From Phellopilus nigrolimitatus (lineage: Eukaryota; Basidiomycota; Agaricomycetes; Hymenochaetales; Hymenochaetaceae): a stretch of 64,000 nt of DNA. Below, piece by piece: positions 3,001 through 27,249 of the stretch. The position numbers were made by a program, and so were the translations under genes. The notes under the pieces are model-generated. The model was not told the origin of the DNA. It saw nothing but the letters and a program-made list of their open reading frames with translations, and did not search any database. The stretch covers positions 1 through 64,000 of the forward strand of contig JAJOHG010000060.1 of the NCBI GenBank assembly GCA_021029095.1. Direction: 5' to 3'. The number at the start of each line of letters is the position of its first letter. Positions within the stretch are counted from its first letter, which is position 1.

Positions 3001-3110
3001 CAGACGACGAACTCGACGAGCTAGCCACAAGGACCGATGACTCGACCACGGCCGACTTAGACCTCGACAACCAAGGAGATAAGGAGGATGGAGAAGATAC
3101 GGCCTCTTAA
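1..3110 (+). CDS. pol: Gypsy Pol of element 1 (reverse transcriptase, RNase H, integrase), 5' partial
   Basis: The frame is open from base 3, so the true start lies to the left; the TTG at 102 is not a start. Domains in order: reverse transcriptase with SVFDLFVAFD (about 504-533) and the catalytic box FVDD (699-710), RNase H with SVDSS (about 1213), integrase with an HNDLGH...CNEC zinc region (about 1920-2035), then acidic residues in HVDIMHM, VSDNGPAF and NGIVERAH. There is no chromodomain; the C-terminus is acidic. FVDD rather than YxDD fits a basidiomycete gypsy lineage in which F(I/V)DD is usual. In RNase H the position normally Glu in a KELxAI-type box is Lys (AAA at 1344-1346), which may disable the enzyme. 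There are no stops or frameshifts in about 1,035 codons. It converges on the antisense gene ending at 3266. Confidence 0.9.
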   Translation, partial: PPLPTHPPDFTPGTRFTAERYAALKSVLESSDFLWPEEVKLCLEVIRLEEYAFAWDESEKGTLDTDYFPPIHIPTVEHVPWALRMIPIPPGIFDKVIEIIKDKISSGVYEPSNSLYRSRWFCVMKKDGKSLRIVHDLQKLNSVTIRDPAVPPSVDTLAESFAARACYSVFDLFVAFDQRKLHPDTRDVTTFQTPLGTFRLTSIPMGYTNSQQILHSDVTFILRLEIPDHTVPFVDDIPIKGPTSRYELADGTYETIPENPLIRRFVFEHLQAVIRIIHRLGKVGATLSGKKITLCAPTGVIVGHTCTYEGRVADDSRVQCIRDWPAPRNVSEVRQFLGTCGVVRIYIKDYARLTKPITSLLNKDIEFIFGPEQDTCFQRIKEAVMNCPALRPIDYQCDRPIVLSVDSSNVGFGCIISQLGPNKERFVSRFISGCWNERERNYSQPKAKLFGLFRSLRASRLYIIGFPHLVVEVDAKYINGMINNRDLQPNATINRWVAGILLFDFQLVHVPGVHHAGADGVSRRPPAPEDPPPDDDYEEWIDEQYGFVAATAHAADDVPEIPRSAKARRRDELVNLYREFLVSKRPPDAYKGDEGRLRAFIKAATGFYVQNGLLWRKNRHDRPQQVPDIDRRFRLIEAAHNDLGHRGFFSVRMHLHDRFWWPFMDRDIKWFLLTCNECQVRQMKKFHIPPTVPPPAALFRRIHVDIMHMPKAGGFQYIIQARCSLSGWPEYRLLRSESARAIQAFLFDEVVCRHGPFIDIVSDNGPAFQPAIKAISKYIGHHIQISPYNSQANGIVERAHRDIREVITKLCKGDDSKWPSAAPFAFWSERVTIKPSTGYSAYFLLHGVEPTLPLDLIEATYMSPAIDRTISHSDLLARRAKDLQRRAEDLALAHERVLASRFKAAQRFREEFDHTIKDYDFEPGALVLARNTRIEKELNRKFKSRYLGPLAVVRRTKGGSYILSDMDGSIYRNRFAVFRLIPYHPRTVLAVPVPTHVNRTDDELDELATRTDDSTTADLDLDNQGDKEDGEDTAS

Positions 3111-3666
3111 GGAAAATCACGCACCCGTCACCTGTCGTGTAATATGTATCGACTATGTACTCTCCAGAATGGAATCAATTCCCTGCTCACAAAATCGGCC
3201 GCCTTAGTTTCGCAAGCCATGTTAAGTCTAATATACAAATCTCGGCCGATCTCCCGACAGCCCTTCTACCGCCTAGTGCTCCGCGCCTTTCCCTTTCCCT
3301 TCCCGACATACCCCTCGTCCGGTTCACCCCTCCGGCGCCCGGGCAGCAGCGCGTAGAGTCGCCGGACGCCGTCCGGCGACCGACGACGTCCCTCCATCTC
3401 CGCCTCGCCGCCTGCGATAACCTCCGCCAGTGCCGCTCGAACTGCACCGGGTTCCGCGTCGCACATCGCTTCCCACCACGCGGGTGCGGCTCCCAAGCCC
3501 GGCGGCGGCGGTGCCGAGCACGCCGCCAAGCGCGGTGCGCCCCCCGGCCAATCGCACGCCACCTTGCGCTGCCTGCACACCACACACGCACGGTACCCCT
3601 TCCGTACCTCACACTCACCCCTACGAGTCGCCCTCTTACCTCGCTTCGAACACGGGTTGCACGGCA

Positions 3667-4189: not shown

Positions 4190-4612
4190 CTCTTTTGATT
4201 GTCGACGTATCAACGTCTAGACAAAATTTCTACCCTACCCAAACTCCCCGCTAACGCGGTCTGGCCCACCGATCAACCCTACCCAACTGCGGGAACCTAT
4301 CCACTCACCCTCAGAAGGAGATCGGACGGACGAATTGCCTGGAAAGTATTTCTTGAAGGAGGCGATCCACACACCGAACTTTTATACCGTTACCACGAAT
4401 TTGGAATCCTCCAAAACGTCCGACCCCGCGAACACTCAAGTCGACCCATTGAAATACCAACGCCACCACAGCATATCGACCCTGTTGACGTAATCACTCG
4501 ATCGTTATCTCAAACATCGCTTGACGACAATTCCACTGCACCACCTCACGTTCCTACTCGACCAAATACTCCACCACAGACCACAGTACCAACCGTCACG
4601 ACAAGCCCCACC

Positions 4613-5663
4613 ATGAGCACCAAAGAAATCGCATTCGCCAAGCCCCCTGACTTCGATGGCAAGCGCAGCAATGCCCAATACTTCTGGGATGCCTGCCAGG
4701 CCTATCTACGAGGCAACAAGGACATCTACAAGACCGATCTGCACAAAATCACGTTCGTCCTTTCATTCATGAAGACTGGTTCAGCCGCCACTTTCGCCAG
4801 CAATAAGTACAAGACATACACGGACACGGCAGAATATGGAACCTGGGCAGACTTCGCCAAAGCCTTCGACGCCCAGTTCCTCCCTGTCAATGCCAAACAG
4901 GATGCGTCATTTGCAATCGCCAATTGCAAACAGGACGACGATGTCGACGGCTTCATCGCTACATTCAAGAGTCTTGCCCTCCAAGCCGGGTTCACCCAAG
5001 AGGAACCCCTCATTGAATACTTTCGACGAGGTCTCAAATCCAGCATTGCAGACAAGATCTACAATCGAGGCGAACCCACTACACTCGAAGGATGGTACAC
5101 CGAAGCCAGCAAAGCCCAACAGAACCTACGACGCCAAGCTGAGCTCAAGCACGCGCGACAAGCGTTGGTCTGGGGCTTTGGTACCAGCCCAGGCAACAAC
5201 CTGACGAAGAAGACTGACCCTGAAGGCTTCCAACGCAGCTCCAGCGGCGCAGCCTGGGAGCCAACTTCTGGGAAGCAAACCGATCCTAACGCCATGGAAA
5301 TTGGACGAGTCTCTAAGGAGGAGAGAGATCGTCGCAAGACAGACGGACTTTGCTTCTATTGCGGAAAGAAGGGACATCTGGCGCGCGAATGCCGTCAGAA
5401 ATTCGACACTCCCAACAGTCGACGATTCGCCTTTGACAATCGAACCACAAGGGCTGGCAGCAACTACAAGATCATGTTCCATCGCGACCCCCCGAGGCGC
5501 AGCATCCGCAGCACCCCAGCCACAGAAGCGCCTGCCCAGCATGCCGAATCTTCGACACCCTGCTAAAGAACCCCCTTCGGCCCGCATTCGCGCCATCCTG
5601 GCCAACCTCTCTGAAGAAGAACGCAAATCCGCATTCGACAACTTGGACCTCGAGGGTTTTTAA
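4613..5663 (+). pseudogene. gag: Gag of element 2, with a one-base shift near its end
   Basis: ATG at 4613 sits in a good context (ACCATGA). A capsid-type gag region follows, then a zinc knuckle CFYCGKKGHLAREC (about residues 247-260). The first frame runs to a stop at 5566, but after the C6 run at 5489-5494 the next frame reads on to 5663 and ends EEERKSAFDNLDLEGF, resembling the end of element 3 Gag (TPEQKKAWAAEFNLL). One C too many in the run would explain this. The same frame is also open upstream from 4199 with no ATG for 138 codons of protein-like sequence, so a longer product from a non-AUG start is possible. Confidence 0.8.
5654..5660 (+). promoter_or_regulatory. Candidate -1 ribosomal frameshift heptamer GGGTTTT at the gag end
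   Basis: In the Gag frame the codons are GAG GGT TTT TAA, giving G GGT TTT, an X XXY YYZ slippery site directly before the stop. A -1 shift enters the pol frame, which has no stop from there through the protease. I see no obvious downstream pseudoknot, but I did not fold the RNA. Confidence 0.6.
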
Positions 5664-8600
5664 GAAGGCAGCCAGCATCGACGTCTGCACTGCCTAGTAT
5701 TTCGATTTCTCCTGTAATCATAGCCGAACATGCCCACAATTCCATGAAAATTCCCATTGGCATCCACTCGAGAAAAGAAATCGTCGAAACCACAGCCCTC
5801 ATAGACTCCGGCGCAGAAGGACAATTCCTCGACTCCACCTTTGTGGACATACACCAAATCCCCACCAAACCTCTGCGTCGACCCATTCAAGTCCTCAATG
5901 TTGACGGAACTCCTAATTCCGAAGGAGAAATCAGTCGTTTCACCTGGCGATTCATTGCGATCGGCGAAGAACTCATCCCAATTTATTTTCTCGTTACCTC
6001 CCTTGGAAGAGAAACCGCTATCCTGGGCCTTCCTTGGCTACGTCGCATCAACCCCAAAATTGATTGGGAGAAACGCACTCTGGACATCCCTAAGCAAAAT
6101 CCACGATCCCTATCTTTTGCCCGATGCGAATCCTATGCCCCACCAGAAGAGCGATCTTTTGTCGCAAAAATCACTCTCAACATCCGTGCAAAAGTAAACA
6201 CCGCCATGGATCTTGCACAACGTGCCAATGCTGCCAAGGAACAGAAACCCCTTGAAGAAATTGTACCAGCACACTACCATCAGTTCCTGAAGGTTTTCGA
6301 ACAGAAGGCATCCGAACGTTTTCCTCCAGTACGGACCTATGACCACGCCATCGTCCTAAAACCCGATTTCCAACCTAAAGACTGCAAAGTCTATCCCATG
6401 GCACCCACGGAACAAAAGGCTCTGGATGACTTCCTTGACGACAACTTGAAGAAAGGTTATATTCGCAAATCCTCTTCCCCCATGGCCTCACCTTTCTTCT
6501 TCGTCGGAAAAAAGGACGGAAAATTGCGTGGATGCCAGGACTATCGCAAACTCAACGAAGGAACAGTCAAAAACGCTTATCCAATTCCCCTCGTATCCGA
6601 ACTATTAGACAAAATTCAAGGGCGCAAAATACTTCACCAAACTGGATGTACGATGGGGATACAATAATATTCGGATCAAAGACGGCGACCAATGGAAGGC
6701 AGCATTCAAAACAAATCGAGGACTCTTCGAACCCATGGTCATGTTTTTTGGACTTTGCAATTCACCAGCGACTTTTCAAGCATTCATGGACTGATACCTT
6801 CCGAACCGTTCTGCTGGAAGGATGGGTCCTCATCTACATGGACGACATATTCATCATGGCCTCGGACATCCCTACACTTCGCGAACGCACCCGCAAAGTC
6901 CTCGCCATTGGACAAGATGCCGACTTATACTTCAAACCGGAGAAATGTGTTTTCGAAGCCACACAGGTAGAATATCTTGGACTTATCATTTCGGAAAACT
7001 CAGTTTCCATGGACCCTGTCAAACTAGCTGGTATCTCGCAATGGCCCACACCAACGAACAAAACCCAAGTTCACTCCTTCCTAGGATTCTGCAATTTCTA
7101 TCGCCAATTCATCGACCACTATGCAGAAATTGCGGCACCATTGGACGTACTAAAAAGGGAGAAAACCACCTGGGAATGGTCCGACGTACACGAGAATGCA
7201 TTCCAACGACTTAAAGGCAAATTTCTGGAGAAACCCATTCTCCAGATGCCTGACAAAACTCGACCATTCATCCTGGAAACGGACGCCTCTGGCGTAGCAT
7301 CGGCTGGTACTCTCAAACAACTCGACTCAAATGGCGAACCCCATCCATGTGGCTTCATTTCCAAACAGTTTGACGACACTCAACGACGCTACGAGATCTA
7401 CGATCGAGAACTCTTAGCGATTATCCGTGGACTTGAAGCCTGGCGACACTATCTTTTGGGTGCACCCCATAAGATAACCATCTGGTGCGACCACAAGAAC
7501 CTTACCTATTTCCGTGCGGCCCGCCGTCTCTCACCCCGCCAAGCACGATGGAGTTTATTTCTCTCCCAGTTCGACCACCACATTCAATACGCACCAGGAA
7601 AAGACAATACCACAGATCCCATGTCCCGACGCTCTGACTACCTGATCGATGGCAAATCAGAACCAGATGACCCCCCACTCTACCCGAATCCGTCTTCATT
7701 GCCACGACTACTGTCGACTTTAAGACCCGTCTAATTCTTCGCACTAAGGAAGACAACTTCGCCAATGAAGCTCTCAATATCATCCGATCAGCCGGTATTC
7801 CACCATTTCGATCTTCCCTTGCTGATTGGACAGAGAAAGATGGCATTGTATTCTTTAAACAGAAGGCCTACATCCCAGACGACATTGAACTTCGCCGACA
7901 TGCAGTACAACTGTACCACGACACCCCTGTCATGGGACACCCTGGGATTTACAAAACCCTCGCATTGCTCAAACAACATTATTGGTGGCCAGGAATGTAC
8001 ATCTTCGTCAAGAAATTCGTCAATGGTTGCGCAATCTGTCAACAAATGAAGATCAACACTCATCCCACCGTCCCACCCCTCCATCCGATCCCTGCCGAAC
8101 CCAATGCACACCCATTTTCCACAGTCTCCATGGACTTTATCACCGGCCTCCCAGAATCAAATGGTTATGACTCGCTATTTGTCACCGTCGATCATAACCT
8201 TTCCAAAGGCATTGTCCTTTCCCCCTGCAACAAAATGATTGATGCCCTTGGAACTGCCCAATTGTATCACGACAACGTCTACCGACGCTTTGGGTTACCC
8301 CAGAAACTCATCTCTGACCGAGGACCCCAATTTGCCTCCAAAGTATTCCAGGAGCTTTGCAAGAAGCTCAATATCACGTCAGCACTATCCACCGCCTTCC
8401 ACCCTCAAACAGACGGAGAAACGGAGCGAGTAAACCAAGAAGTCGAAGCGTACCTTCGAATCTATTGTGGACGCCACCCGGAAACCTGGGCTGATCACCT
8501 GCCTGATATCGAATTCGCACACAATCAACGCGAACATTCCGCCACAAAACGCTCCCCATTCTCACTCCTCATGGGATACGAACCAATTGCCATCCCCGCC

Positions 8601-9161
8601 GCAGACCCTAACTCCGATCATCCCTCGGTAGAAGAACGCCTTCGCTCCCTTAAAGCCCTCAGAGAAGAAGCACTTGCGGCGCACGAACTTGCCCACATGC
8701 ACATGGCTGCCCGCATGACCCGGAACTTTGTACCCTTCAAGAAAGGGGAGAAAGTTTGGCTAGAAGCCCGGAACCTTGACATCGCCTCTCCATACAAGAA
8801 ATTGTCCCCTAAACGCGAAGGTCCCTTTGAAATCAAGGACGTGCTATCCCCATGGTCTTATCGCCTGACGCTACCGGTCCGATGGCGAATCCACAACGTC
8901 TTCCATGCCTCCCTCCTGACTCGTTATGTGGAGACCGATACCCACGGACCTACCCACGCGGAGCCACCACCTGACCTTGTCAATGGAGAAGAAGAATACG
9001 AGGTTGACGCAATACTGCGTCATCGTTTCCCAAAGAACCGAAGACAATACCTCGTGTCCTGGAAAGGATGGTCATCGCTCCACAACTCGTGGCAGAAGGA
9101 ATCGGACCTCAAAAATGCAAAAAAACTTCTCAACGACTATAAAAAGACCCATCGACTCTAA
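5661..9161 (+). pseudogene. pol: Pol of element 2 (protease, RT, RNase H, integrase, chromodomain) with three frameshifts
   Basis: The protease has ALIDSGAEG (DSG at about 5804). RT has [11 protein letters not shown] (about 6640) and YMDD (Asp pair at 6841-6846). RNase H has LETDAS (Asp about 7282). The integrase zinc region lies about 7900-8045, with acidic residues in MDFITG, SDRGPQF and GETERVN (Glu about 8424). A chromodomain spans about 8990-9155 (EEEYEVDAILRHR, YLVSWKGW). The frame changes at an extra G near 6619-6621, an extra base near 6789-6792 (giving TGA), and a lost base in the C run near 7684. Frames before and after each join read as normal Pol, so these are copy-specific breaks or assembly errors. 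A chromodomain would direct insertion to heterochromatin, consistent with the nesting. Confidence 0.88.
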
Positions 9162-14592: not shown

Positions 14593-15253
14593 TCCGTACC
14601 ACCTCACACATCTTCCTCTTACATCTTAAATCGTCTCATCCCTCTACTCTTTTTCAACATTCCATCCACTCGCCGTACACGCCGCGTTCGACGACCTGGA
14701 CTCCGACCGCGAGGTATCTCCTTGCGACCCGTTCTATCACTCAGGGCTGCGCGTAGGTCTCTTTGATCTTCAGTAGCTACATCCCATATTCCCACCAGCC
14801 GTCTGCCAGGGTCTTTGTTTCCTCTACGACCCAGGCGGCTGCCGCTTTGCCCTGCTGAATCTTTACTGCGTTTACTTTGGCGCGGCTAAGCTCTTCAGTA
14901 GCGCTAGAACTACGTACAGATACACGGCTGTAGGCTAGATCACCGGACCGTTGGGCACGTGCAGTTCTACTGTCGTGTTTTAAGGCAGCGAGAGAGCGTG
15001 TACTAGTCAGAAGACGCAATCACTGGCTGATACAACGAAGGGTGTCTAGTACGGCAGTCCCCCAGATCCCTAGAGTAATCAACTCAGTAGTATACAGTAG
15101 AGTATACAGTAGGCCGGCGTGCCTAGCAGAGACCACCTGGTAGTTAGTAAATAGACTTTCTACCGCGCACAAGAAAAGCCCACACTGGATCCCATTTGGG
15201 AAAGGAGGTCGACGACACCCCTGATTGACGAATCATCGTCAGAAACAGAAACG

Positions 15254-16387
15254 ATGTCGGGGAACCCAGCTACTGGATCGAGTTCTGGACTAGCGGGCAG
15301 TATGCACGCCCTAGGTACCGATCCAACCGGCAATCAGCCCCAACCACGACCACGTTCGCCGTCACCCGAAAGAGACCCCTTCATTGAAGGGCTTCTCAAC
15401 GCCAAAAAGAAAAAGACCCATGTAGCGAAACCTGACCCCTTTTCGGGAAAGGACTACAAGAAGTTCATACGGCAGGTCAAACTGTTCCTTTGGGCGAATA
15501 AGAAAGACTTCACCTCCGACGATGAAAAAATCGAGTTCACACTCTCATTCATGACGGAGGGACGTGCCAGTAAATGGGCGGAGAACTTTATCGATAAAGC
15601 CATCGCCGACGGAACAGATGACTATCCCGATTTTGGCGACTGGGACAGTTTCCTCAGACAGCTCAAGGATTCATTCCATGATGCCAACGAGGCACAGACG
15701 GCTCAGCGTAACCTATCGTCTCTACGTCAGGGCTCGACATCGGCTGAGGAATACTTCCAGAACTTCGACATCCTCCGCCGAATAGCTGGGTACAGCAAGG
15801 ACCACGACCAGTACCTCATCGAGCTCTTAGAACGACAGCTCAGCGAGTCGATTGTCACAAAGATTTATGGCTCGGAAACTCTGCCCACCACTTATGACGG
15901 GTGGAAGCGGAAGGCGATTCGCTTTGATAACCTTGAGCGTCGACTAAAAGAAGTACGCCGCCAACAGACGCCACAAAATCCCCCTGTCGCCAGAAAACCC
16001 GAACAGTCAACAACCCCTTGTACCACGCCTAATACCGCTCCCACCTACAAACGCGATAGTACAGGGACCGTCTTCACGGGCACAGGGCAGCCGATGAATC
16101 TTGATGAAGCAAGGCAAAAGGGGGTTTGCTACAAATGCGGATTGCCAGGCCATATTGGCAAGTTTTGTCCAAATCGTCAAAAGACGGAGGTGCGCGCTAC
16201 AACTTCTGACACGCCACCCAGTGGAGGCACGGGAACGAGCGTGTTCACTGGGGTAGAGGTGCGTGAATTGAAGAGTTCCGCGGACATAAAGCAATTTGTG
16301 TACGCGATGACGCCAGAACAGAAGAAGGCGTGGGCAGCGGAGTTTAATCTCCTTAAAGAGTCGGATTTTGCGGGACCCCAGAAGTGA
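15254..16387 (+). CDS. gag: Gag of element 3
   Basis: 377 aa from ATG at 15254. A capsid-type gag domain occupies roughly residues 55-240 (KPDPFSGKDYKKFIRQVKLF, later FHDANEAQTAQRNLSSLRQG), typical of chromoviruses. A basic linker follows, then a zinc knuckle CYKCGLPGHIGKFC (about residues 292-305) for RNA packaging. The C-terminus resembles that of element 2 Gag. It overlaps the -1 pol frame, open from 16357, by 31 bases. I find no classical X XXY YYZ heptamer in that overlap; the run TTTT in GAT TTT GCG (16364-16372) is the best weak candidate for slippage. Confidence 0.93.
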   Translation: MSGNPATGSSSGLAGSMHALGTDPTGNQPQPRPRSPSPERDPFIEGLLNAKKKKTHVAKPDPFSGKDYKKFIRQVKLFLWANKKDFTSDDEKIEFTLSFMTEGRASKWAENFIDKAIADGTDDYPDFGDWDSFLRQLKDSFHDANEAQTAQRNLSSLRQGSTSAEEYFQNFDILRRIAGYSKDHDQYLIELLERQLSESIVTKIYGSETLPTTYDGWKRKAIRFDNLERRLKEVRRQQTPQNPPVARKPEQSTTPCTTPNTAPTYKRDSTGTVFTGTGQPMNLDEARQKGVCYKCGLPGHIGKFCPNRQKTEVRATTSDTPPSGGTGTSVFTGVEVRELKSSADIKQFVYAMTPEQKKAWAAEFNLLKESDFAGPQK

Positions 16388-19300
16388 TTACGGCACTTCC
16401 TGGGGGAGGTTCGGTTTCGGTTTCGGACACGGTCACTGTAGATAGTTGTAAAAATAGTTTTCCTACTTCTCCAAAAAACGAAAAAAGCACACAAAAAATA
16501 AAAAACAACGAGAACGCAAAAACAGAAACTGTAGATAGCTCGCCGTCTGTTGATACAGCGGATGTTTTCCTTTCTTCTTCAAATAATAGTATTTATAAAA
16601 CCGAACCCAAAACCGTAAAAAACGAGTCTCCAAAGGCACGAGCCATCCCCTTTACTGCACCATGGGTGGTAAGGCGCCTAAAGGATGACAAACTCGAAAA
16701 TGCCCTAACAACGTTGCGAGTGTGGATGCATGAGAAGAGGCAAGAGGAAGCGAATGAAGAGACTGTACGTCAGATCATTGCGCTAGAAGACGAGGAGGCG
16801 GTGAAAGCGGTTAGAGGGCTGAGGGGCCCTAAAAGGTTTATCAGGGGATCCCGCGGACAGCAGTTGAATGTCGCGGTTTCCCTGCAGGCAACGGACACTG
16901 GTTCATGGTTTAATGTCGAAGCCCTACTTGACAGTGGCTGCACCGGCTCATGTATTGATCGATCCTTCGTACAAAAGAATGGAATTCGGACCCAAAACAC
17001 ACCAATTCCAATCCCAGTCTATAACGCCGATGGTACCCTAAACAAGGGAGGATCGATCACAGAGACGGTGGAGATGCGAATGATAATCCGAGATCATGCG
17101 GAACGCATCACCTTCGCAGTCACAGATTTGGGGAAGACAGAATTGTTCATAGGGCACGAGTGGCTAAAACTCCACAACCCGAGCATCGATTGGCAGAAAT
17201 CAACGATCACATTTGATAGATGCCCAGATGCATGTGGATATGTAGCCGACCTCTTGGACATTGATGCCGACCCTGATGATGACCAGGAACCTGAACTAGT
17301 TATGGAGGAAGGAGAAAGGCTCTTCGCATTCGACTGGGACCAATACGTCTCCTCACATGCTCAAAAAATGAGGCGATGGTCAGATTCGACCGAGACACTT
17401 GTGGACTCAACCCCAGATTATGTGACCGAGTTCAAAGATGTCTTCGATCAATCTGATTTTGATCAGCTACCAGAACGACGCCCGTGGGATCACGCTATAG
17501 AACTCACCCCGGGCTTCGCTCCAGTTGATTGCAAGGTCTACCCCCTAAATCAGGGTGAACAGAAGGCCTTAGATGAATTCCTTGAGGAGAACCTCCGTAC
17601 AGGCCGGATACGTCCATCAAAGTCACCGATGGCGTCCCCATTCTTCTTCATTAAAAAGAAAGACGGAAAGCTTCGCCCTGTACAAGATTATCGCAAACTC
17701 AATGAGATGACGGTGAAGAATCGATATCCGTTACCCTTGATACAGGAGCTAGTCGATAAACTGAAACAGGCACGACACTTCACAAAGCTTGATGTCCGTT
17801 GGGGGTTTAATAACATCCGGATTAAGGAAGGTGATGAGTGGAAGGCAGCGTTTAGGACGAATCGTGGTCTCTTTGAGCCGACAGTAATGTTCTTCGGATT
17901 AACAAATTCACCGGCTACCTTTCAAGGGTTTATGAACGAAATCCTGAAAGATCTGATCGACGACGGACATGTCATAGTGTATCTTGACGATATCCTGATC
18001 TTCACAGATGATCTTGATCATCATTGGAAACTGGTCCGTCGCGTCTTAGAGATACTCCGAGCGAACAAACTGTACCTCAAACCCGAGAAGTGTAGTTTTG
18101 AAAAGACCACAATCGACTATCTAGGGCTCATTGTCGGTGAAGGGAAGCTGAGGATGGACCCAGCGAAAGTAGCTGCTGTGCGAGATTGGCCGAAGCCCAC
18201 AAAGAAAAAAGAACTTCAGTCGTTCTTGGGCTTCTGCAATTTCTACCGGCGCTTCATTCTAGGGTTCAGCGCCCACGCGAAACCACTCACATCATTGACG
18301 GGCAACACAGAATGGAAATGGGAAGCAGCACAGGATCTTGCCTTTGAACGTCTCAAAGAAAGTATCTGCCAAGAACCAGTACTCGCGCTCCCTGTTGATG
18401 ATGGACAATTCCGCGTGGAAGCAGACTCTTCAGATTTTGCTAATGGTGCCATACTGTCACAGTACGTTGACGGAAAATGGCGACCGATCGCTTACCGGTC
18501 ACAATCACTCAGTGAAGCCGAACGAAACTACGAGATCTATGACAAAGAGATGCTCGCGATTATGTCTTCACTTGATGATTGGCGACAATACCTTCTCGGG
18601 GCTAAAGAACCATTTGAAATCTGGTCAGATCACCAAAACCTCCAGTATTTCAGAAAGCCCCAGAAGCTTAACCGGCGACAAGCGCGATGGGTAACAGAAT
18701 TAGCGGAATATGACTTCGTGCTGCACCACAAGCCTGGCGCCTTGATGACAAAAGCTGACCTCCTCTCGAGACGAGCAGGACATAAGACGGGGGAGGATGA
18801 TAACAGCAACGTCACTTTATTAAAACCCGAATTATTTTTGAAAGAAATCTCGTTCGAGTCACTAGACGAGGACTTCATTCAGAGAATAAAACGGGTGCGC
18901 AATAATAAAGACAAGGCGGTAGTAAAAGCACTAGCGGCGGGAGCTAAACTTTGGGAAGAGTACGGCGATGGTCTAATCACGTGGCAGGAAAGAATCTACG
19001 TCCCTAAAGATTCTAAACTGCGTGAGGACATTATCAGGGCACATCATGACAGTGCGATAGCAGGACACCCAGGGCGGTACAAAACACATGAATTGATTAC
19101 CCGCAATTACTGGTGGCCTGGTGTTCAGCGCGATGTCAGATGCTATGTAGAAGGATGTGACACGTGCCAAAGGACGAAGCCACGACGAACGCGCCCCCAT
19201 GCTCCACTCCAACCTAATGAAATCCCAAAAGAACCATGGGAAATTGTTACAGTCGATCTGATTGGCGAGGTTCCTGAGTCGAACGGTCACAATGCCATCT

Positions 19301-20454
19301 GTGTATTTGTAGATCGGTTCAGCAAACAGATACACGCTGTCCCGACTTCTATCACATTAACAGCAGAAGGCATGGCCAAACTCTATCGCGATAATGTCTT
19401 TCGGCTACATGGCATCCCTCGGAAATTCATTCATGACCGCGGCACTCAGTTCGAAGCGCGCTTTATGAAAGAGTTATACCGGCTACTTGGGATTGAAGGG
19501 AATCCGTCGACGGCTTATCACCCCCAGACTGATGGACAAACAGAACGTATAAATCAGGAGATCGAACAATATCTCCGGATCTTTATCAACTACCATCAGA
19601 CAGACTGGGCGGAATGGCTCGCTATGGCAGAATTCGCGTACAATGACAAAGAACAAAGTTCTACAGGCTCATCGCCATTCTTTGTCAATTATGGGAGGCA
19701 CCCTTTCAAAGGGACTAACCCCAGACGCGAACCCCTGAACGAGTCGGCTGGACAATTTGTTGATCGGATGAAGCGGATTAGGGAGGAGACGGCATCGGCA
19801 CTACAGAAAGCGGCAGAAACCATGAAGCGGTTTTACGATCGAACTAAGGGTGAATCTATTGAATACGCCCCAGGAAGCAAAGTCCTACTGGAAGCATCGA
19901 ATATCAAAACAGATCGCCCTATGAAAAAGTTCGACGACAAACGCTATGGCCCTTTCGAGGTAGAAAAGAAGATTGGGAAATCGGCGTACAAACTTAAGCT
20001 TCCAAGGACATGGAAGAAAATACATCCAGTCTTCAACGAAGTATTATTGTCACCCTACAAAGACCCGAGATACCCATCACAGCAACAGCCGCCGCCACCA
20101 CCCCCTGTTCTCAGTGACGAAGGAGAAGAGTACGAGGTTGAAAAGATTGTAGATGCGAAGAAAGTCCGAGGGAAACTCAAATTCCTAGTTCATTGGAAAG
20201 GTTACCCGGTGTCTGAGCGTACGTGGCAAGCCACTGAAGACCTGGAAAACTCCCAAGAACTGATCGAAGAGTTCTACAAGGAAAACCCCGGTGCGCCAAG
20301 AGGTATTAGTGCACTTGACTTCGCTTCCATACGCTTTACCACAATCATCGACGACAACATCCCGTCTATATCCCACGTCACCTCCGGCAAAAACCACATC
20401 GCCTCACGTCTATCCCTTAGAAAAATCCATGTCGAACGAGGACGTTCGCCCTAA
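16357..20454 (+). CDS. pol: Pol of element 3 (protease, RT, RNase H, integrase, chromodomain)
   Basis: The frame opens at 16357 inside gag in the -1 frame; the first GTG is at 16384 and no start codon is needed if it is made as Gag-Pol. Numbering from 16384: protease DSGCTGS at about 183, [13 protein letters not shown] near 470 and YLDD with Asp pair at 538, RNase H with EADSS (Asp 681) and IYDKEMLAI, integrase zinc region about 885-925, catalytic Asp 958, Asp 1018 (IHDRGTQF) and Glu 1054 (GQTERINQ), a GPF-type module (RYGPFEV), and a chromodomain at about 1247-1300 (EEYEVEKIVDAKK, LVHWKGY). All catalytic residues are present with no stops, so the enzyme set should be functional. It is separated from the 3' LTR only by the purine tract. 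Confidence 0.95.
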   Translation, partial: RVGFCGTPEVITALPGGGSVSVSDTVTVDSCKNSFPTSPKNEKSTQKIKNNENAKTETVDSSPSVDTADVFLSSSNNSIYKTEPKTVKNESPKARAIPFTAPWVVRRLKDDKLENALTTLRVWMHEKRQEEANEETVRQIIALEDEEAVKAVRGLRGPKRFIRGSRGQQLNVAVSLQATDTGSWFNVEALLDSGCTGSCIDRSFVQKNGIRTQNTPIPIPVYNADGTLNKGGSITETVEMRMIIRDHAERITFAVTDLGKTELFIGHEWLKLHNPSIDWQKSTITFDRCPDACGYVADLLDIDADPDDDQEPELVMEEGERLFAFDWDQYVSSHAQKMRRWSDSTETLVDSTPDYVTEFKDVFDQSDFDQLPERRPWDHAIELTPGFAPVDCKVYPLNQGEQKALDEFLEENLRTGRIRPSKSPMASPFFFIKKKDGKLRPVQDYRKLNEMTVKNRYPLPLIQELVDKLKQARHFTKLDVRWGFNNIRIKEGDEWKAAFRTNRGLFEPTVMFFGLTNSPATFQGFMNEILKDLIDDGHVIVYLDDILIFTDDLDHHWKLVRRVLEILRANKLYLKPEKCSFEKTTIDYLGLIVGEGKLRMDPAKVAAVRDWPKPTKKKELQSFLGFCNFYRRFILGFSAHAKPLTSLTGNTEWKWEAAQDLAFERLKESICQEPVLALPVDDGQFRVEADSSDFANGAILSQYVDGKWRPIAYRSQSLSEAERNYEIYDKEMLAIMSSLDDWRQYLLGAKEPFEIWSDHQNLQYFRKPQKLNRRQARWVTELAEYDFVLHHKPGALMTKADLLSRRAGHKTGEDDNSNVTLLKPELFLKEISFESLDEDFIQRIKRVRNNKDKAVVKALAAGAKLWEEYGDGLITWQERIYVPKDSKLREDIIRAHHDSAIAGHPGRYKTHELITRNYWWPGVQRDVRCYVEGCDTCQRTKPRRTRPHAPLQPNEIPKEPWEIVTVDLIGEVPESNGHNAICVFVDRFSKQIHAVPTSITLTAEGMAKLYRDNVFRLHGIPRKFIHDRGTQFEARFMKELYRLLGIEGNPSTAYHPQTDGQTERINQEIEQYLRIFINYHQTDWAEWLAMAEFAYNDKEQSSTGSSPFFVNYGRHPFKGTNPRREPLNESAGQFVDRMKRIREETASALQKAAETMKRFYDRTKGESIEYAPGSKVLLEASNIKTDRPMKKFDDKRYGPFEVEKKIGKSAYKLKLPRTWKKIHPVFNEVLLSPYKDPRYPSQQQPPPPPPVLSDEGEEYEVEKIVDAKKVRGKLKFLVHWKGYPVSERTWQATEDLENSQELIEEFYKENPGAPRGISALDFASIRFTTIIDDNIPSISHVTSGKNHIASRLSLRKIHVERGRSP

Positions 20455-22404: not shown

Positions 22405-23214
22405 TGTACCAGTATACGACTGGGTACAGTCCAATTCTGCCACCGTAGGAGCGGCAGACGGAGTCCGACGTCGGCAAGCGGTGTTAAGAGGGAGGAACAG
22501 CCGGGAGAGTAGTAGGCGGAAGAGGGGTCGGACTAAGATGCGGAGGACTAACGGCCGATGACGCATTCCGCGAGCGGTCGGTCAGCCGATCAGATCGGAG
22601 GCGAGTTAGCCGACGGCTAGTGATTCGAGGGTTGAAGATAAGAAGGATTTGCGGGCCGGCGAGTGTCCTATTTAGAGTAGAGTATCGCATCATGTACGAG
22701 GGGGGGGGACCCGTTCTTCCTCTATAGAGAGTTCATTGCCCACTTCTCTTCTCTCTGTCCAATGTCGATCCGGTTCTCGTCTTCTTGTGACATTGCCCTA
22801 CTTCGTTCCTCTCAGCACTCCGACAGTCGGCCCCGCCCAGAAAGATCGAGTCGGCCCCGCGCCCGGCGAGGACGCGGCTGTTTCTGATCCGACCCAGTGT
22901 TGAGTCCGACTTCGGTTTGTTCCCTCCTGGCTAAAGCACTGTAGATTCATTGAACGGCGGACGTACGGTCCTTCGACTGTTTTCCCGCCCGGCACGAAAG
23001 GATCTCGTAAACCGCGGCACACCGGAACGACACTCACGGTCACTGTGTGCCGCGGGCAGCACACCGGAACTCAAAGTCCTCCGAGGAGGCAGAAGGACAT
23101 TGAAGGAGAGCTTGAGGCACACTGTGATGCTGGGCTTCAGGGGGAGCAATTGGGGATTTCATTCTTTCTGGTACTGTGTCTCACTTGCCAGTTTCTTTCG
23201 GTTCGAGGGGGAGT
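22405..23214 (+). repeat. Probable 3' LTR start of element 1, then remnant ending in a copia-like purine tract
   Basis: A 3' LTR probably starts TGTACC at 22405. Its end is unclear; TGTGACA at about 22786-22792 is a weak candidate. From about 22793 the sequence changes character. A hairpin occurs at about 23009-23056 (CCGCGGCACAC with GTGTGCCGCGG), and GCACACCGGAAC is repeated twice there. The stretch ends TCGAGGGGGAG at about 23203-23213, just before TGTTGGAAT, which looks like the purine tract and LTR start of a Ty1/copia element. No intact gene is seen. Confidence 0.35.
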
Positions 23215-23222
23215 GTTGGAAT
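23215..23222. repeat. 8-bp target-site duplication, left copy (GTTGGAAT)
   Basis: GTTGGAAT precedes TAGAGCCTGGCAC and recurs at 26625-26632 after the opposite end. Confidence 0.82.
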
Positions 23223-23568
23223 TAGAGCCTGGCACAAGTAGAACCTCGGGTTGACCCGGACCTGTTGGCGGGTCACCCGTGGCTTAAATTTCCCAACCTG
23301 GACCCGGCTTGACCCGGACCTGTTCGGACTCGGACCTACGGGTCCCCAAAAACCCACGGGTGCAGGTCACGGAGGTCAAGGGTCAGTTTGCGGATCTTCA
23401 CAGGTTTTTGTAACCAAAGCCGTGAACTCCTATCTTACTGAGCCAAACTACACGGAGGCATACCAGACAGCACCCAGATCGTCTCTTACTTAGTCAAGAA
23501 CAAGTCATTGACCTTCGAAGAGTGCATTGTGTGGGCGAGACTGCAATTTGAGTAAGCAAAATCCCCAC

Positions 23569-24190
23569 ACACTGTATACCACAAACCTACTGACGGCCCC
23601 ACCCGACCTGCACGAGCTGTACGCGCCGCATCCTGAGATTCGCTTGCCGCTGAATGCATGCATCTCGCCATCACCGTGCGCAAATGCGGACCCACCCTAC
23701 CAGTGCTGCACATTCAATGCGGTCCTGACGACCTCCGCACTGCTCAACAAGTCCAAATTGCTTTTTGGACTCGTCCTCACGCCATACCACTCGCTCAAAG
23801 AGGGCGATACTCCGATCCTGTGCATTACCGACACTGTCATCTCGTGCTGCCGCTGTTGCAGAACCCTTCGTGCAGTTCATCGACGGCGGCAACCAATGGT
23901 ATTGCATGCTTTGCATGATGTCCAATGAGGTGCCGCGCAGATTTTTGACTAGGGACAGGTGGGCACGCGCAGAGCTGGTCGAACTCGTTGCACCGACAGA
24001 ATACATGGTCCGCCCGCCCCAGCCTGTGTTTTCCTGCTTCTTCGTTGACATGATCTATGCCGCTGTCTCGACCGGTATAGTCGCGACTGCCTGTCGGTCA
24101 CTACTCGAGTCGCTCGATAGAATTCCGAACGATGACAATAGGACAAAGATCGCGATCATCGCTTTCGACGTCACCTTATGTTGCTTTACT
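23569..24190 (+). pseudogene. SEC24: Captured SEC24 fragment
   Basis: Two frames together read as the linker, zinc-finger and start of the trunk domain of the COPII cargo adaptor Sec24: APHPEIRLPLNACISPSP, LNKSKLLFGLVLTPY, then PFVQFIDGGNQWYCMLC, VAPTEYMVRPPQP and RTKIAIIAFDVTL. Several codons about 8 bases in total are missing before PFVQF, causing the frame change near 23865. Zinc-finger arginines are replaced (CCRCCRT where CRRCRT is expected), each explained by CGC to TGC. Neither end of the gene is present, so it cannot make a functional coat protein. Confidence 0.85.
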
Positions 24191-24530
24191 ATGCCGGTAC
24201 ACATAATTCGCGAAAACTGTACTTTTTCTATCTCTTATTTGAGCACATTAGCCGGGAACAGACAGGCGTTTTGGTGGGGACATGTTGGGCTGACTAATAC
24301 AGCTACAACATAAGTGGAAGACAATAACTTTTTTTCCAAGGAGTGCTAAGCAAAGAAAAAAGCACAAGCAGAACCAACTCATCGAGGGCTCTCATTCCAT
24401 ATATTTATTTTGTTGTGAAGTGCGAAAATAAATTAAACAGGTGCCTAGATGCATTGTCGATAAAACAAGGTGCTCGGATGTTTCCGACCCCTCTAATCAT
24501 TGACCCAGGTCGCACTGGCTGAGTGACATC

Positions 24531-25708
24531 TCACTCCGTCGGGCAGCAGCTCCTCCGGTGGACGCTTCTACGACGACCCGCACAACGACGCCTGGGCTGC
24601 GCAGGCGCCCGCCTTCGGCCACTGGAGTCCGCGCAGTGCCCGGTGGCAGCGCGAGCACTACGCGAGCAGGGGCGACGGCTACAGCGACTACTCGTACGAG
24701 CACGACGCGCCGCCGTCCTTGTTGCAATCTGGGTACAGCGAGTACTACTCCACGTCGAGCGAGCCGTGCGACGAGCCTGCGTTCTACGAGGCGGGCTATC
24801 ATGACAGGTCGGCCTACAGGCACAACTACCAGCAGCAGCGCTCATACAGCACCTATCTCGCAGGCCCGGCGTTCTCGCCTCGACACCGCCGCACACCTAC
24901 GCCCTCACCCCCGCCCGCGCCCCTCCCGTCATCCCCGTCTCCAGACTACATCCAGGTCGCGTCTCTCCCCTCCAGCCCTTCCCATCCGCCCCGCGCAAGT
25001 TGGTCATCCTCGATCTCAACGGCACGCTCCTTGTGCGCACCGCGCGCGGCGTGCCGCACCCGCGGCCGTACATGCCCGCGCTGCGCGACTTCCGCTTCAC
25101 GCCGCGCACGCGCGCGTGGCTCGACTCGATGGTCTGCTCCAGCGCGCAACCGCACAACATCGACAAGATGGGTGCGCTGCTGCTTCTTTGACGCGCTCTT
25201 CGGTGTGCCTCTTGCCGGCACCGCAGCGTGCGACGCAGACGAAGGGTTCGTCGCCGTTTGGGCACGCAACACGCTCGGCCTCTCACATGGCGACTAATGT
25301 ACGCTTCTTCTCCCCCTATCGTTCTCTAACTAGTTCTTACCTGCCCCTAGCGAAAAAAACACAAACAACGAAAGACCTCGCGAAGCCCTGGGCTCGCCTC
25401 TTCCACCCCCAGTACCTCCTCTGCCAACGCTCCCACTTCCGCGCCTAGCGCTGAACCCCCGCGGGAGCCGCACAGCGCGTACACGACATTTCTCCTTGAC
25501 GACTACCCCCGCGAAGGCGCACCTCCAGCCGTACAGCCACGTCTGCATCCGCGAGTATGCAGAGCAAGCGCGCGAGCGCGACGTTCGTCTCAAGGTGCGC
25601 GCTTTGTTTGCGCAGGTGGAGGTAAAGCCGGAGCCGGCGCAGACGCATGAAGCGCAGGAGGCGCTGGCGCTTGTGGAAGAGGCGGACGGGGAGGTGGAGC
25701 CGGAGGTA
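24531..25708 (+). pseudogene. Captured NLI/FCP1-like HAD phosphatase fragment
   Basis: A Tyr/Ser/Pro-rich N-terminal region (GRFYDDPHNDAWAAQAP; SGYSEYYSTSSEPCDEP) leads in a shifted frame to LVILDLNGTLLVRT, the DxDGT-type motif of HAD phosphatases in the DLNGT form common in fungal members. Further on come RPYMPALRDF and, after a probable intron and another shift, FLLDDYPREG and HLQPYSHVCIREY near the C-terminus. At least two frame changes break it. It ends at about 25708 in GTAAGT, directly before the oppositely oriented SMC2 piece, so the junction is chimeric. CTD-phosphatase-like activity is known for the family but not expected here. Confidence 0.7.
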
Positions 25709-25714
25709 AGTGTG

Positions 25715-26400
25715 TCGAGCTTTGGGATGATCTCTTCAGCGAGCAGGGATGTGATTTCGTCGACACGCTTCTCCTTCTTGCCCATGGTCTTCTTGGCCTT
25801 GTCCTTCTGCTCTTCAAACATGCGTGTGCCGGCCGCCTCCTCTACCATGCCCAGGATTTCTTGAGGTCGCATATTCAAGACCTGTTCGACGATGAGATAG
25901 CGTTGGATTATATCATAATATGCCTACCTTCGTGATGCGGCCCTGTATAATAAGGAAGTTCGGGTTGTTGATGTTCAGCTGCACACCTTGGAAAAGCGTC
26001 TGGATGGTGTGCTGCTGCGACTTGTGTCCGTTGAGCAAATACTTGGAAACGCTAGGCAGAGCTATTTGGCGCGTGACTGTGATCTGTTTGCAGTTCTCCA
26101 GTCCGACAGGCCTTTTGTCGCGATCTGAAATTGTCGAAGACGATCGTGACGCTGGCTTTCGTTATCCCGGCCTGACCACGCTTGTAAATGAGGTCCTGCT
26201 GGTTCTGAGCGCGCATCTGAATCATACAGTGCGTATTTCTTACTGAGGACACGTTCGTGATTCCGAGCACGAAGCAGATCGCGTCCAAGATGTTGGATTT
26301 GCCAGAGCCGTTGAGACGCGTAGAGCGCGCAATGGCATCCCAATCCGCCATACCCACATTTATCTCTGACTCCTTTGGAACCCTTGCCTGCTATGTACAT
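25715..26400 (-). pseudogene. SMC2: Captured 5' part of the condensin gene SMC2
   Basis: Reading the minus strand: [18 protein letters not shown] (Walker A of the SMC ATPase head), a short interruption where an intron would lie, [25 protein letters not shown], and then near 25870-25720 RPQEILGMVEEAAGTRMF and KKEKRVDEITSLLAEE at the start of the first coiled coil. This order is diagnostic of SMC2. Similarity stops after PKLDTL; hinge and C-terminal head are absent. The first Gly of the Walker A box is Arg. It is a gene fragment without function. Confidence 0.85.
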
Positions 26401-26624
26401 ATCATACTTACATATGATATACAAATAGATGTACCTTTGCTACACTTTCCTTAAAACCCGTGTGAATTACCCGCAGGTTTTGAAAAAACACAAATTCTCA
26501 ACCTGGACCCGCGAAAACCCGTTTCCCACGGGTCACCCGTGCACGGGTGATCCGTGAATACGGATCTGCAGTCCGAGTCGGGTCGCAAATACCCACGGGT
26601 TCCAGGGAGTCGTGCTACGCTCTA

Positions 26625-26632
26625 GTTGGAAT
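26625..26632. repeat. 8-bp target-site duplication, right copy (GTTGGAAT)
   Basis: This matches 23215-23222 exactly and follows the right terminal repeat. Confidence 0.82.
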
Positions 26633-27249
26633 TTGTGCGAACCCTCAAAAACTGTTTCAGGGTAACGGACATATCGGGTAGATTAGTAAGCACATAGCAT
26701 ATAGACTGACGGTCTGTATTTTGCAATCTATCGCGTTTGCCCACGGCCCACCACCGCCAACGGGACAAACGGAACCCACTGTGCGCGACTGCTGGCGACC
26801 TCGCCCCTCGTATTTCAACATGACTCACGAGATGCTTGCCTTCCAGTCCGAGCCCCGCTTCCATCTCCGCGTCTCCAAGCCCTTTGCCTGGTGTCGGTCG
26901 ACAGCGAAGGCGAAAGATGGCAGTCACGACGGGAGATGCCGGCTAGTTTAAGGCCGTCACTTCTCGGCCCGCAGAACCCGGCCGATACAGTGAAGTCATC
27001 CCGCCGGCGTATGACCTCGACCCACCCCGTCGACGCGCTGCTTGTTGGAATGACGAGCTCGATCGTTGCATCATCTTTGTTTATTTGTTTCTTATCGGTC
27101 CGTAGAGTATAAGTAGGTGCCGTGCATGTACGTTTTCTCTTATCCGTTTGCCTCAGAGCTCAGCAGGTCAAACGTGAATTCATTTGCTTTTGTCTACGTC
27201 TCACGGCACTAAGCTACCGAAACTTCAACACTGCTCGATTCCATCGCGA
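26633..27249. other. Probable continuation of the copia-like LTR; no gene seen
   Basis: Joined to 23214 across the hAT insertion this reads TGTTGGAATTTGTG, a copia-like LTR start. A TATA-like AGTATAAG lies near 27107. I see no clear LTR end and no coding frame I trust. Confidence 0.3.

Follow-up and report, generated by a model that had tools for sequence, protein, structure and literature searches.

What brought pieces of several unrelated host genes together inside one 3.4-kb mobile element? The question is raised by a 64,000-nucleotide stretch of DNA from Phellopilus nigrolimitatus, a basidiomycete in the order Hymenochaetales (hereafter the window; positions 1 to 64,000 of contig JAJOHG010000060.1, assembly GCA_021029095.1), in which positions 23223-26624 are taken up by a 3402-bp element. 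We analysed this element, which lies on contig C556, against the genome of 56,438,583 bases in 635 contigs. Between the ends of a hAT transposon it carries pieces of the genes UBA1, SEC24 and SMC2 and of an FCP1/NIF-like HAD phosphatase gene. We consider it very likely that this is a non-autonomous Pack-type hAT transposon, whose gene pieces were captured serially and then spread by transposition.

The ends of the element are exact. Terminal inverted repeats (TIRs) of 13 bp, TAGAGCCTGGCAC and TAGAGCGTAGCAC, match at 11 of 13 positions and are enclosed by an exact 8-bp target site duplication (TSD), GTTGGAAT, at 23215-23222 and 26625-26632. An earlier reading of the window from its letters alone (the sequence-only reading) had proposed a hAT element with these coordinates, TIRs and duplication, all of which held. 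hAT TIRs are short and carry a (C/T)A(G/A)(A/G)G-like motif; TAGAGC stands at both ends of the element, and TAGGGC in a relative on contig C1. The left end reads TAGAGCNTAGCAC or TAGAGCCTGGCAC in 11 of 12 relatives and TAGAGCATAACAC in the remaining one (C625:205557). Both ends were resolved in 19 family members, of which 18 have an exact 8-bp TSD, the hAT length, and one has 7 of 8 positions matching. Helitrons have no TSD, end in CTRR at the 3' side and insert between A and T; a Helitron identity is ruled out by the 8-bp TSD together with the TIRs. The sequence-only reading had also seen no transposase, and Pfam matched no transposase domain in the seven open reading frames and six plus-strand frames scanned (the minus strand as three open reading frames in the right half), indicating a non-autonomous element within this scope. 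No RNA family at gathering thresholds and no tRNA were found in the window. The features, in window coordinates, are as follows.

23215-23222, unstranded: left TSD, GTTGGAAT, a single copy of which stands at three fetched empty sites (L050-L052)
23223-23235, plus strand: left TIR, TAGAGCCTGGCAC, 11 of 13 positions matching the right TIR
23236-23413, plus strand: left subterminal region (hAT frame), with short repeats; 40 matches for element bases 1-178
23414-23552, plus strand: UBA1 (ubiquitin-activating enzyme E1) fragment, from PF10585 and DNA alignment to the host gene on C223
23556-24259, plus strand: SEC24 fragment (zinc finger and start of the trunk), from Pfam, PDB and the host gene at C57:410576-411323
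24288-24468, plus strand: unnamed 181-bp piece, 90% identical to C1:2433130-2433311
24544-25708, plus strand: FCP1/NIF-like HAD phosphatase gene fragment, part 1, from the host gene at C90:566031-567171 and homologs with PF03031
25299-25350, plus strand: retained predicted GT-AG HAD intron, 52 nt, where the host reading frame changes
25709-26322, minus strand: SMC2 fragment (head domain) nested in the HAD fragment, from the host gene at C287:22346-22981, Pfam and PDB
25882-25927, minus strand: retained predicted SMC2 intron, 46 nt, placed by alignment to a solved SMC2 structure
26217-26243, minus strand: retained predicted SMC2 intron, 27 nt here and 50 nt in the host, placed in the same way
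26323-26388, plus strand: HAD fragment, part 2, with strand and order as in the host and in the relatives C146 and C179
26389-26611, plus strand: right subterminal region (hAT frame); 61 matches, some of them second matches within one element
26612-26624, minus strand: right TIR, TAGAGCGTAGCAC, 11 of 13 positions matching the left TIR
26625-26632, unstranded: right TSD, GTTGGAAT, identical to the left

Cargo makes up 2869 of the 3402 bases (84%). In element coordinates, UBA1 occupies 192-330, SEC24 334-1037, the unnamed piece 1066-1246 and HAD 1322-2486 and 3101-3166, with SMC2 antisense at 2487-3100. The UBA1 piece scores just under the cut-off of 21 for PF10585 (19.9 bits, E 7e-4), and its alignment to the C223 host gene is identical in 128 of 161 columns, with 22 gap columns (E 7e-41 in a two-sequence comparison). 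SEC24 is matched by PF04811 (E 6.8e-10), PF04810 (E 3.2e-8) and SEC24 chains in PDB; identity to the host gene is 82.0% over 750 columns, or 87.6% ungapped over 702. The host parent lies in an open frame of 403 residues that covers the zinc finger and the trunk; a Sec23_BS domain follows downstream. SMC2 is matched by PF02463 (E 2e-13) and SMC2 chains in PDB and is 93.4% identical to its parent over 637 columns. The HAD piece, 89.5% identical to its parent over 1173 columns, gave no Pfam match in the read-through frames of element or host. We named this gene through homologs of the spliced C90 gene because an 873-residue frame on C83 proved wrong, having no Pfam match and not being the frame of the HAD motif. 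The spliced gene has 261 homologs; among the 120 listed, 106 carry PF03031 (NIF/FCP1), counted by hand; the annotations are, for example, FCP1 homology domain protein, mitochondrial import translocase subunit and phosphoprotein phosphatase.

The four parents are not contiguous: SEC24 lies on C57, UBA1 on C223, HAD on C90 and C83, and SMC2 on C287 and C90, which rules out a single host locus as the source of the cargo. The two HAD parents are 94.3% identical over the main alignment, a haplotype-like pair, and the two SMC2 parents 98.5%; on C90 the HAD and SMC2 genes are about 100 kb apart. A Pack-TYPE element holds a host gene between its TIRs while the parent stands elsewhere in the genome, and here four such parents were located. 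The identities to the parents (128 of 161 columns for UBA1, 82% for SEC24, 89.5% for HAD, 93.4% for SMC2) may hint at the order of capture, and are not treated as dates because coding content and gaps vary from piece to piece. The C1 match of the unnamed piece and a further family member are 449 bp apart and identically oriented.

The sequence-only reading fared well on most of this cargo. It had named SEC24, SMC2 and a DLNGT-type HAD phosphatase in mixed orientation, and Pfam and PDB bear out the first two, the homologs of the spliced host parent the third; SMC2 is antisense and the other pieces lie on the plus strand. Its view that unlinked functions had been captured agrees with parents found apart and not contiguous in this order. 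Its count of three genes was too low: UBA1 was missed, and the number is at least four. SEC24, SMC2 and UBA1 are essential in yeast; the phrase 'three essential housekeeping genes' was inexact, essentiality being unshown for the FCP1-like gene. One of the supposed AT-rich linkers holds the 181-bp piece.

Three predicted introns are retained, two in the SMC2 piece and one in the HAD piece, indicating that capture was from DNA. The search for intact parents, breakpoints and introns that the sequence-only reading had proposed thus found both parents and introns. The SEC24 host stretch, one open frame, is uninformative on this point. The retained introns rule out transcript transduplication of the intronless histone H3 type, and retrocopies as the source of the SMC2 and HAD pieces.

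The clearest trace of how such a mosaic grows lies where SMC2 interrupts HAD. The junction between HAD and the right end falls at the same point in the window element and in two relatives, C146 (2511 bp) and C179 (4064 bp), and therefore HAD was most likely captured once, in a common ancestor of the three. SMC2 was found in neither relative: none of 595 SMC2 20-mers is shared, and the alignment shows HAD continuing there. In the window element about 110 bp of HAD, measured against the C90 allele (100 bp against C146), is replaced by 614 bp of SMC2. Judged from these alignments, C146 and C179 on the one hand and the window element on the other would represent the before and after of a nested capture. 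The HAD motif reads DRNGA in C146 and DLNGT in the host and the window element.

We then asked the genome for further copies. Searches scored the best candidates only (the best 40 of 272 for the full element, of 149 for the left end, of 150 for the right end and of 120 for the joined flanks), so that copy numbers are lower bounds. At least five full-length copies, the window copy included, stand at unrelated sites, the other four being 98.7-99.4% identical to it. Their flanks (up to 1.3 kb per side) have no mutual similarity at E 1e-5; the TSD is exact at 8 bp in four copies and 7 of 8 in the copy on C123. Substitutions between copies range from 1 to 38, the single one separating C123 and C190. 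Five copies with TSDs of their own show that the element was mobilised after capture. When the flanks of the window copy were joined with one copy of the target, at least five other genomic places matched end to end (320 bases, 93-96% identity). At the three empty sites fetched, 117 of 120 bases around the site match and GTTGGAAT occurs once. These places are related empty sites rather than the allelic one, because the insertion lies within a dispersed repeat. Other copies with the same TIRs and uninserted target sites, on which the sequence-only reading had staked its proposal, were therefore both present. By the features tested, the window element is a Pack-hAT.

Of 44 substitutions confined to one of the five copies, 29 are CpG transitions, taking the rarer base as derived and dropping gap columns and columns with the rarer base in two copies. 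The copies thus probably decay mainly via CpG transitions, as expected under cytosine methylation, which suggests silencing. PMC4352252 (available, like every paper cited here, in part) describes CpG signatures in the transposons of three basidiomycetes: two rusts, where they are weak, and a third species, where they are strong.

The window element belongs to a family with varied cargo. End searches returned 40 left-end and 61 right-end matches from the best-scored candidates, the five copies included. Cargo was scanned with Pfam in one representative of each of nine types (five of six frames, scanned singly, for the C1 and Plus-3 representatives), and parents were traced for UBA1, SEC24, HAD and SMC2. 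The types are these.

Window element: UBA1, SEC24, HAD, SMC2
C290 type: transposase, UBA1, SEC24, NOT1
C146 type, C146:62825-65335 (L011:1326-3836): ribosomal S19e, eIF3a, HAD
C179 type, C179:214935-218998 (L014): HSP70, HAD, a further 2 kb
C608/C611:65834/C625:761942 group: septin and a 124-bp bit of SEC24
C478 type, C478:9372-12341 (L037): CHD1, DJ-1
C1 type, L028:366-2681: ubiquitin hydrolase
C154 type: SEC24 and a sub-threshold HMG box
C611:28866/C446/C301/C124/C625:205557 group: sub-threshold Plus-3 only

Six of the nine types (window element, C290, C146, C179, C608 group and C478) hold pieces of at least two host genes, and the examined members together hold twelve: UBA1, SEC24, HAD, SMC2, NOT1, S19e, eIF3a, HSP70, septin, CHD1, DJ-1 and ubiquitin hydrolase. 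Plus-3 (22.6 bits, cut-off 27) and the HMG box (22.8 bits, cut-off 25.4) fell below cut-off and were not counted as genes, nor were the sub-threshold matches to Vps36-NZF-N, AAA_23, AAA_29, AAA_21, SLT_4, DHC_N2, DUF5101, RsgA, AAA_16, GTP_EFTU, HMG_box_2 and VP_N-CPKC. PF10712, matched in two frames (E 2e-14), was left out of the count; this Pfam family is an antisense artefact of HSP70. The C478 and C1 elements have about 700 aligned bases in common at 73%, the right end included. The extra 2 kb of C179 begins, by eye, like the left flank of the C123 copy and may be a nested repeat. Related left and right ends also enclose stretches of about 450-465 bp resembling miniature inverted-repeat transposable elements (MITEs), at C78:26117-26569, C168:82358-82821 and C1:445432-445895.

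SEC24 recurs through the family. Short zinc-finger pieces equivalent to element bases 334-682 occur on C154, C36, C346, C290:53129, C619, C235, C445 and C446:34414, and seven of these eight (not C619) end within about 15 bp of right-end sequence. Seven of the eight also share a change to TAG relative to the host, read as an in-frame stop; C619 has no coverage at that site. Family SEC24 pieces (on C290, C154, C36, C346, C235, C445 and others) stand at an ungapped distance of about 11-17% from the host, and because of this SEC24 sequence appears to have been either long carried in the family or taken more than once. A SEC24 tree groups the window element with C290 (support 0.925); having no outgroup, it is silent on the number of SEC24 captures.

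The most informative relative is an 8.1-kb member at C290:62295-70399 (L016:796-8900), with the same ends and an exact 8-bp TSD. Over the left 332 bp, which include UBA1, it matches the window element at 98.5% identity, whereas its SEC24 pieces are 78.5% and 84.2% identical with gaps and 89.0% ungapped. Given this disparity, the window SEC24 piece is not a simple deletion derivative of the C290 element, and the window element seems to have been built from at least two templates. The minus strand of the C290 element carries a putative hAT-like transposase, a protein joined from several frames, with 58 homologs among 7994 candidates scored. The best homolog aligns to 93% of the query at 48% identity; PF05699 is present in 40 of the 58, and one homolog bears the name hAT transposon family protein. 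A 107-residue piece of this protein has nine genomic matches, its own included, at 65-100%. Six family end matches, three left and three right, fall within about 25 kb on the same contig (approximately 48.9-73.4 kb).

How would the pieces have entered? Excision of a hAT element leaves a double-strand break. On the account we prefer, the window element, which probably makes no protein, would be moved in trans by the hAT transposase of relatives such as the C290 element, and an excision break, an internal break or a fork stalled within the element would be repaired from another copy. The new strand may switch to other DNA and then return, replacing an internal stretch with a gene piece, as could have happened with SMC2, and the resulting patchwork would then spread by ordinary transposition. 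Related proposals have been made for maize Ds (PMC3260210) and, with gap filling and fork switching, for animal Pack-TIRs (PMC8277862). Somewhat on the doubtful side of even, we further suggest that the whole family, its transposase-bearing member included, forms a continuing gene-shuffling system, in which pieces of unlinked host genes are copied time and again into the interior of elements already present, during break repair.

Several observations weigh against this account of serial capture. It reads template switching from one before/after case, in which the HAD stretch at the SMC2 site is a tandem repeat, so that the length lost depends on the register. At one SMC2 junction 22 aligned bases are missing from C146, and at the other 19 are missing from C179, so that neither is the exact ancestor. 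The junctions share 0 and 1 bp by eye, and joining of a loose fragment into a break fits them as well. For the transposase, the C290 frames were joined by eye and score 19.0 for PF05699 against a cut-off of 21.4; the minus-strand read-through frames gave no Pfam match at E 0.01, and a genome-wide PF05699 search found seven other places, the C290 element not among them. Finally, the account rests on sequence, with neither transposition nor a transcript observed.

The ends clustered on C290 and the C1 source of the 181-bp piece, so close to a family member, also fit a different route, one that is favoured for plant Pack-TYPE elements (PMC8903248, PMC13317346): host DNA lies between two related elements that lose the ends facing each other, and the remaining outer ends mobilise it. 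This may explain the 181-bp piece. It explains poorly how SMC2 came to sit inside HAD in place of about 110 bp, with a source about 100 kb from HAD on C90, or how one element came to hold cargo from several contigs, and we think it unlikely as the origin of the mosaic. A role for the cargo, either in an antisense or small-RNA effect on the host directed at SMC2, SEC24 or UBA1 or, for the SEC24 piece, in serving the transposon itself, could account for the antisense placement of SMC2 relative to HAD and for the recurrence of SEC24 pieces close to right-end sequence in several members. The CpG decay, which suggests silencing, and the TAG change in most short SEC24 pieces both speak against such a role, and we regard it as distinctly improbable.

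Broken frames and gene pieces in mixed orientation would also be expected if retrocopies or gene debris had landed by chance in an ordinary MITE-like element. The introns exclude retrocopies for SMC2 and HAD, however, and two or more host-gene pieces are present in six of nine cargo types, so that this origin has very little to recommend it. Least credible of all is that the mosaic is an assembly artefact; the assembly is fragmented and holds haplotig-like duplicates, but five copies of the same content stand in dissimilar flanks with TSDs, and target sites are found uninterrupted. We thus retain serial capture by a Pack-type hAT element, followed by transposition.

If the family does work as a gene-shuffling system, its elements turn into layered patchworks holding up to four genes or more, and the window element, C146 and C179 record one capture step with base-level breakpoints. 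For such a step, the review PMC13317346 allows that a yet undiscovered mechanism may exist. The order of events can be read here: a shared HAD capture, the replacement of about 110 bp by SMC2 in one lineage, and the spread of that lineage to five sites. Because the parents, the pre-SMC2 relatives, a transposase-bearing relative and empty sites are all in one genome, models of capture become testable on exact breakpoints. The results suggest Pack-type gene shuffling at scale in a wood-decay fungus.

Two observations concern the surroundings of the element. The insertion, flanked by window 23208-23222 and 26625-26799, lies at the start of the dispersed repeat, which resembles the start of a long terminal repeat; many of the 42 matches to the flank query begin at bases 142-146, the TGTTGGAAT boundary after a purine-rich stretch. 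Two Ty3/gypsy-like retrotransposons, named by eye, lie elsewhere in the window, at 15155-20454 and 4199-9161, one with a 1365-residue open frame.

Among known systems, the Pack-MULEs of rice are TIR elements with captured host gene fragments, some expressed as chimeric transcripts. They belong to the Mutator superfamily and, unlike the window element, have longer TIRs and a 9-bp TSD. Rice Pack-MULEs are mentioned in PMC13317346, and Pack-TYPE hAT elements in maize and rice are the subject of PMC8903248; PMC10853768, in the part available, merely cites a Pack-TYPE paper. The plant Pack-TYPE hATs and maize Ds share with the window element non-autonomous hAT ends, the 8-bp TSD, intron-bearing fragments (Ds2-22) and internal filler DNA. 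Gene capture is described as a rare hAT feature in PMC3260210, with gene fragments in two Ds2 and nine Ds-l4 elements; here, in contrast, four genes share one 3.4-kb element with five copies, in a family with many cargoes and in a fungus. hAT elements are also the commonest carriers of animal Pack-TIRs (208 of 370), where multicopy cases arise by transposition; those elements are mostly single-copy, and the available part of PMC8277862 describes no four-gene or nested element.

Fungal precedents qualify the claim of the sequence-only reading that such an element is unusual in a basidiomycete. The histone H3 hATs of Pyrenophora tritici-repentis (PMC3538342) and Pseudocercospora fijiensis (PMC6710886) are likewise hATs of a fungal host that multiplied a housekeeping gene, so that hAT transduplication in fungi is not new; what stands of the claim is serial, multi-gene capture of genomic DNA without a transposase. 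The ascomycete elements carry one named host gene captured from a transcript (PMC6710886). The P. fijiensis form has an 8-bp TSD and a hAT domain in 277 of 471 elements (PMC6710886), and in P. tritici-repentis the transposase gene is full-length in the long form (PMC3538342). The present element differs in carrying several genes, as genomic DNA with introns, in lacking a transposase and in belonging to a basidiomycete. The TET/JBP-bearing hAT7 of rust fungi (PMC12730594) is alike as a basidiomycete hAT with a captured non-transposase gene; its enzyme gene is found in many kinds of transposon, its TSD is 7 bp and its transposase is present. In Pleurotus, Helitrons reportedly take up no host gene fragments (PMC4289320, in the part available). 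Among the titles and abstract openings listed in our literature searches, with subscription papers and preprints mostly outside their coverage, none described a Pack-type hAT with several captured genes from a fungus. Gene capture by hATs is thus known already from maize, rice and animals, and single-gene hAT transduplication from ascomycetes, and in the available parts of the papers compared Pack-type gene shuffling is otherwise described for plants and animals. What is unusual in P. nigrolimitatus is capture in series with nesting, the number of genes that single elements hold, a transposase relative that itself bears cargo, and the preservation of relatives without the last step.

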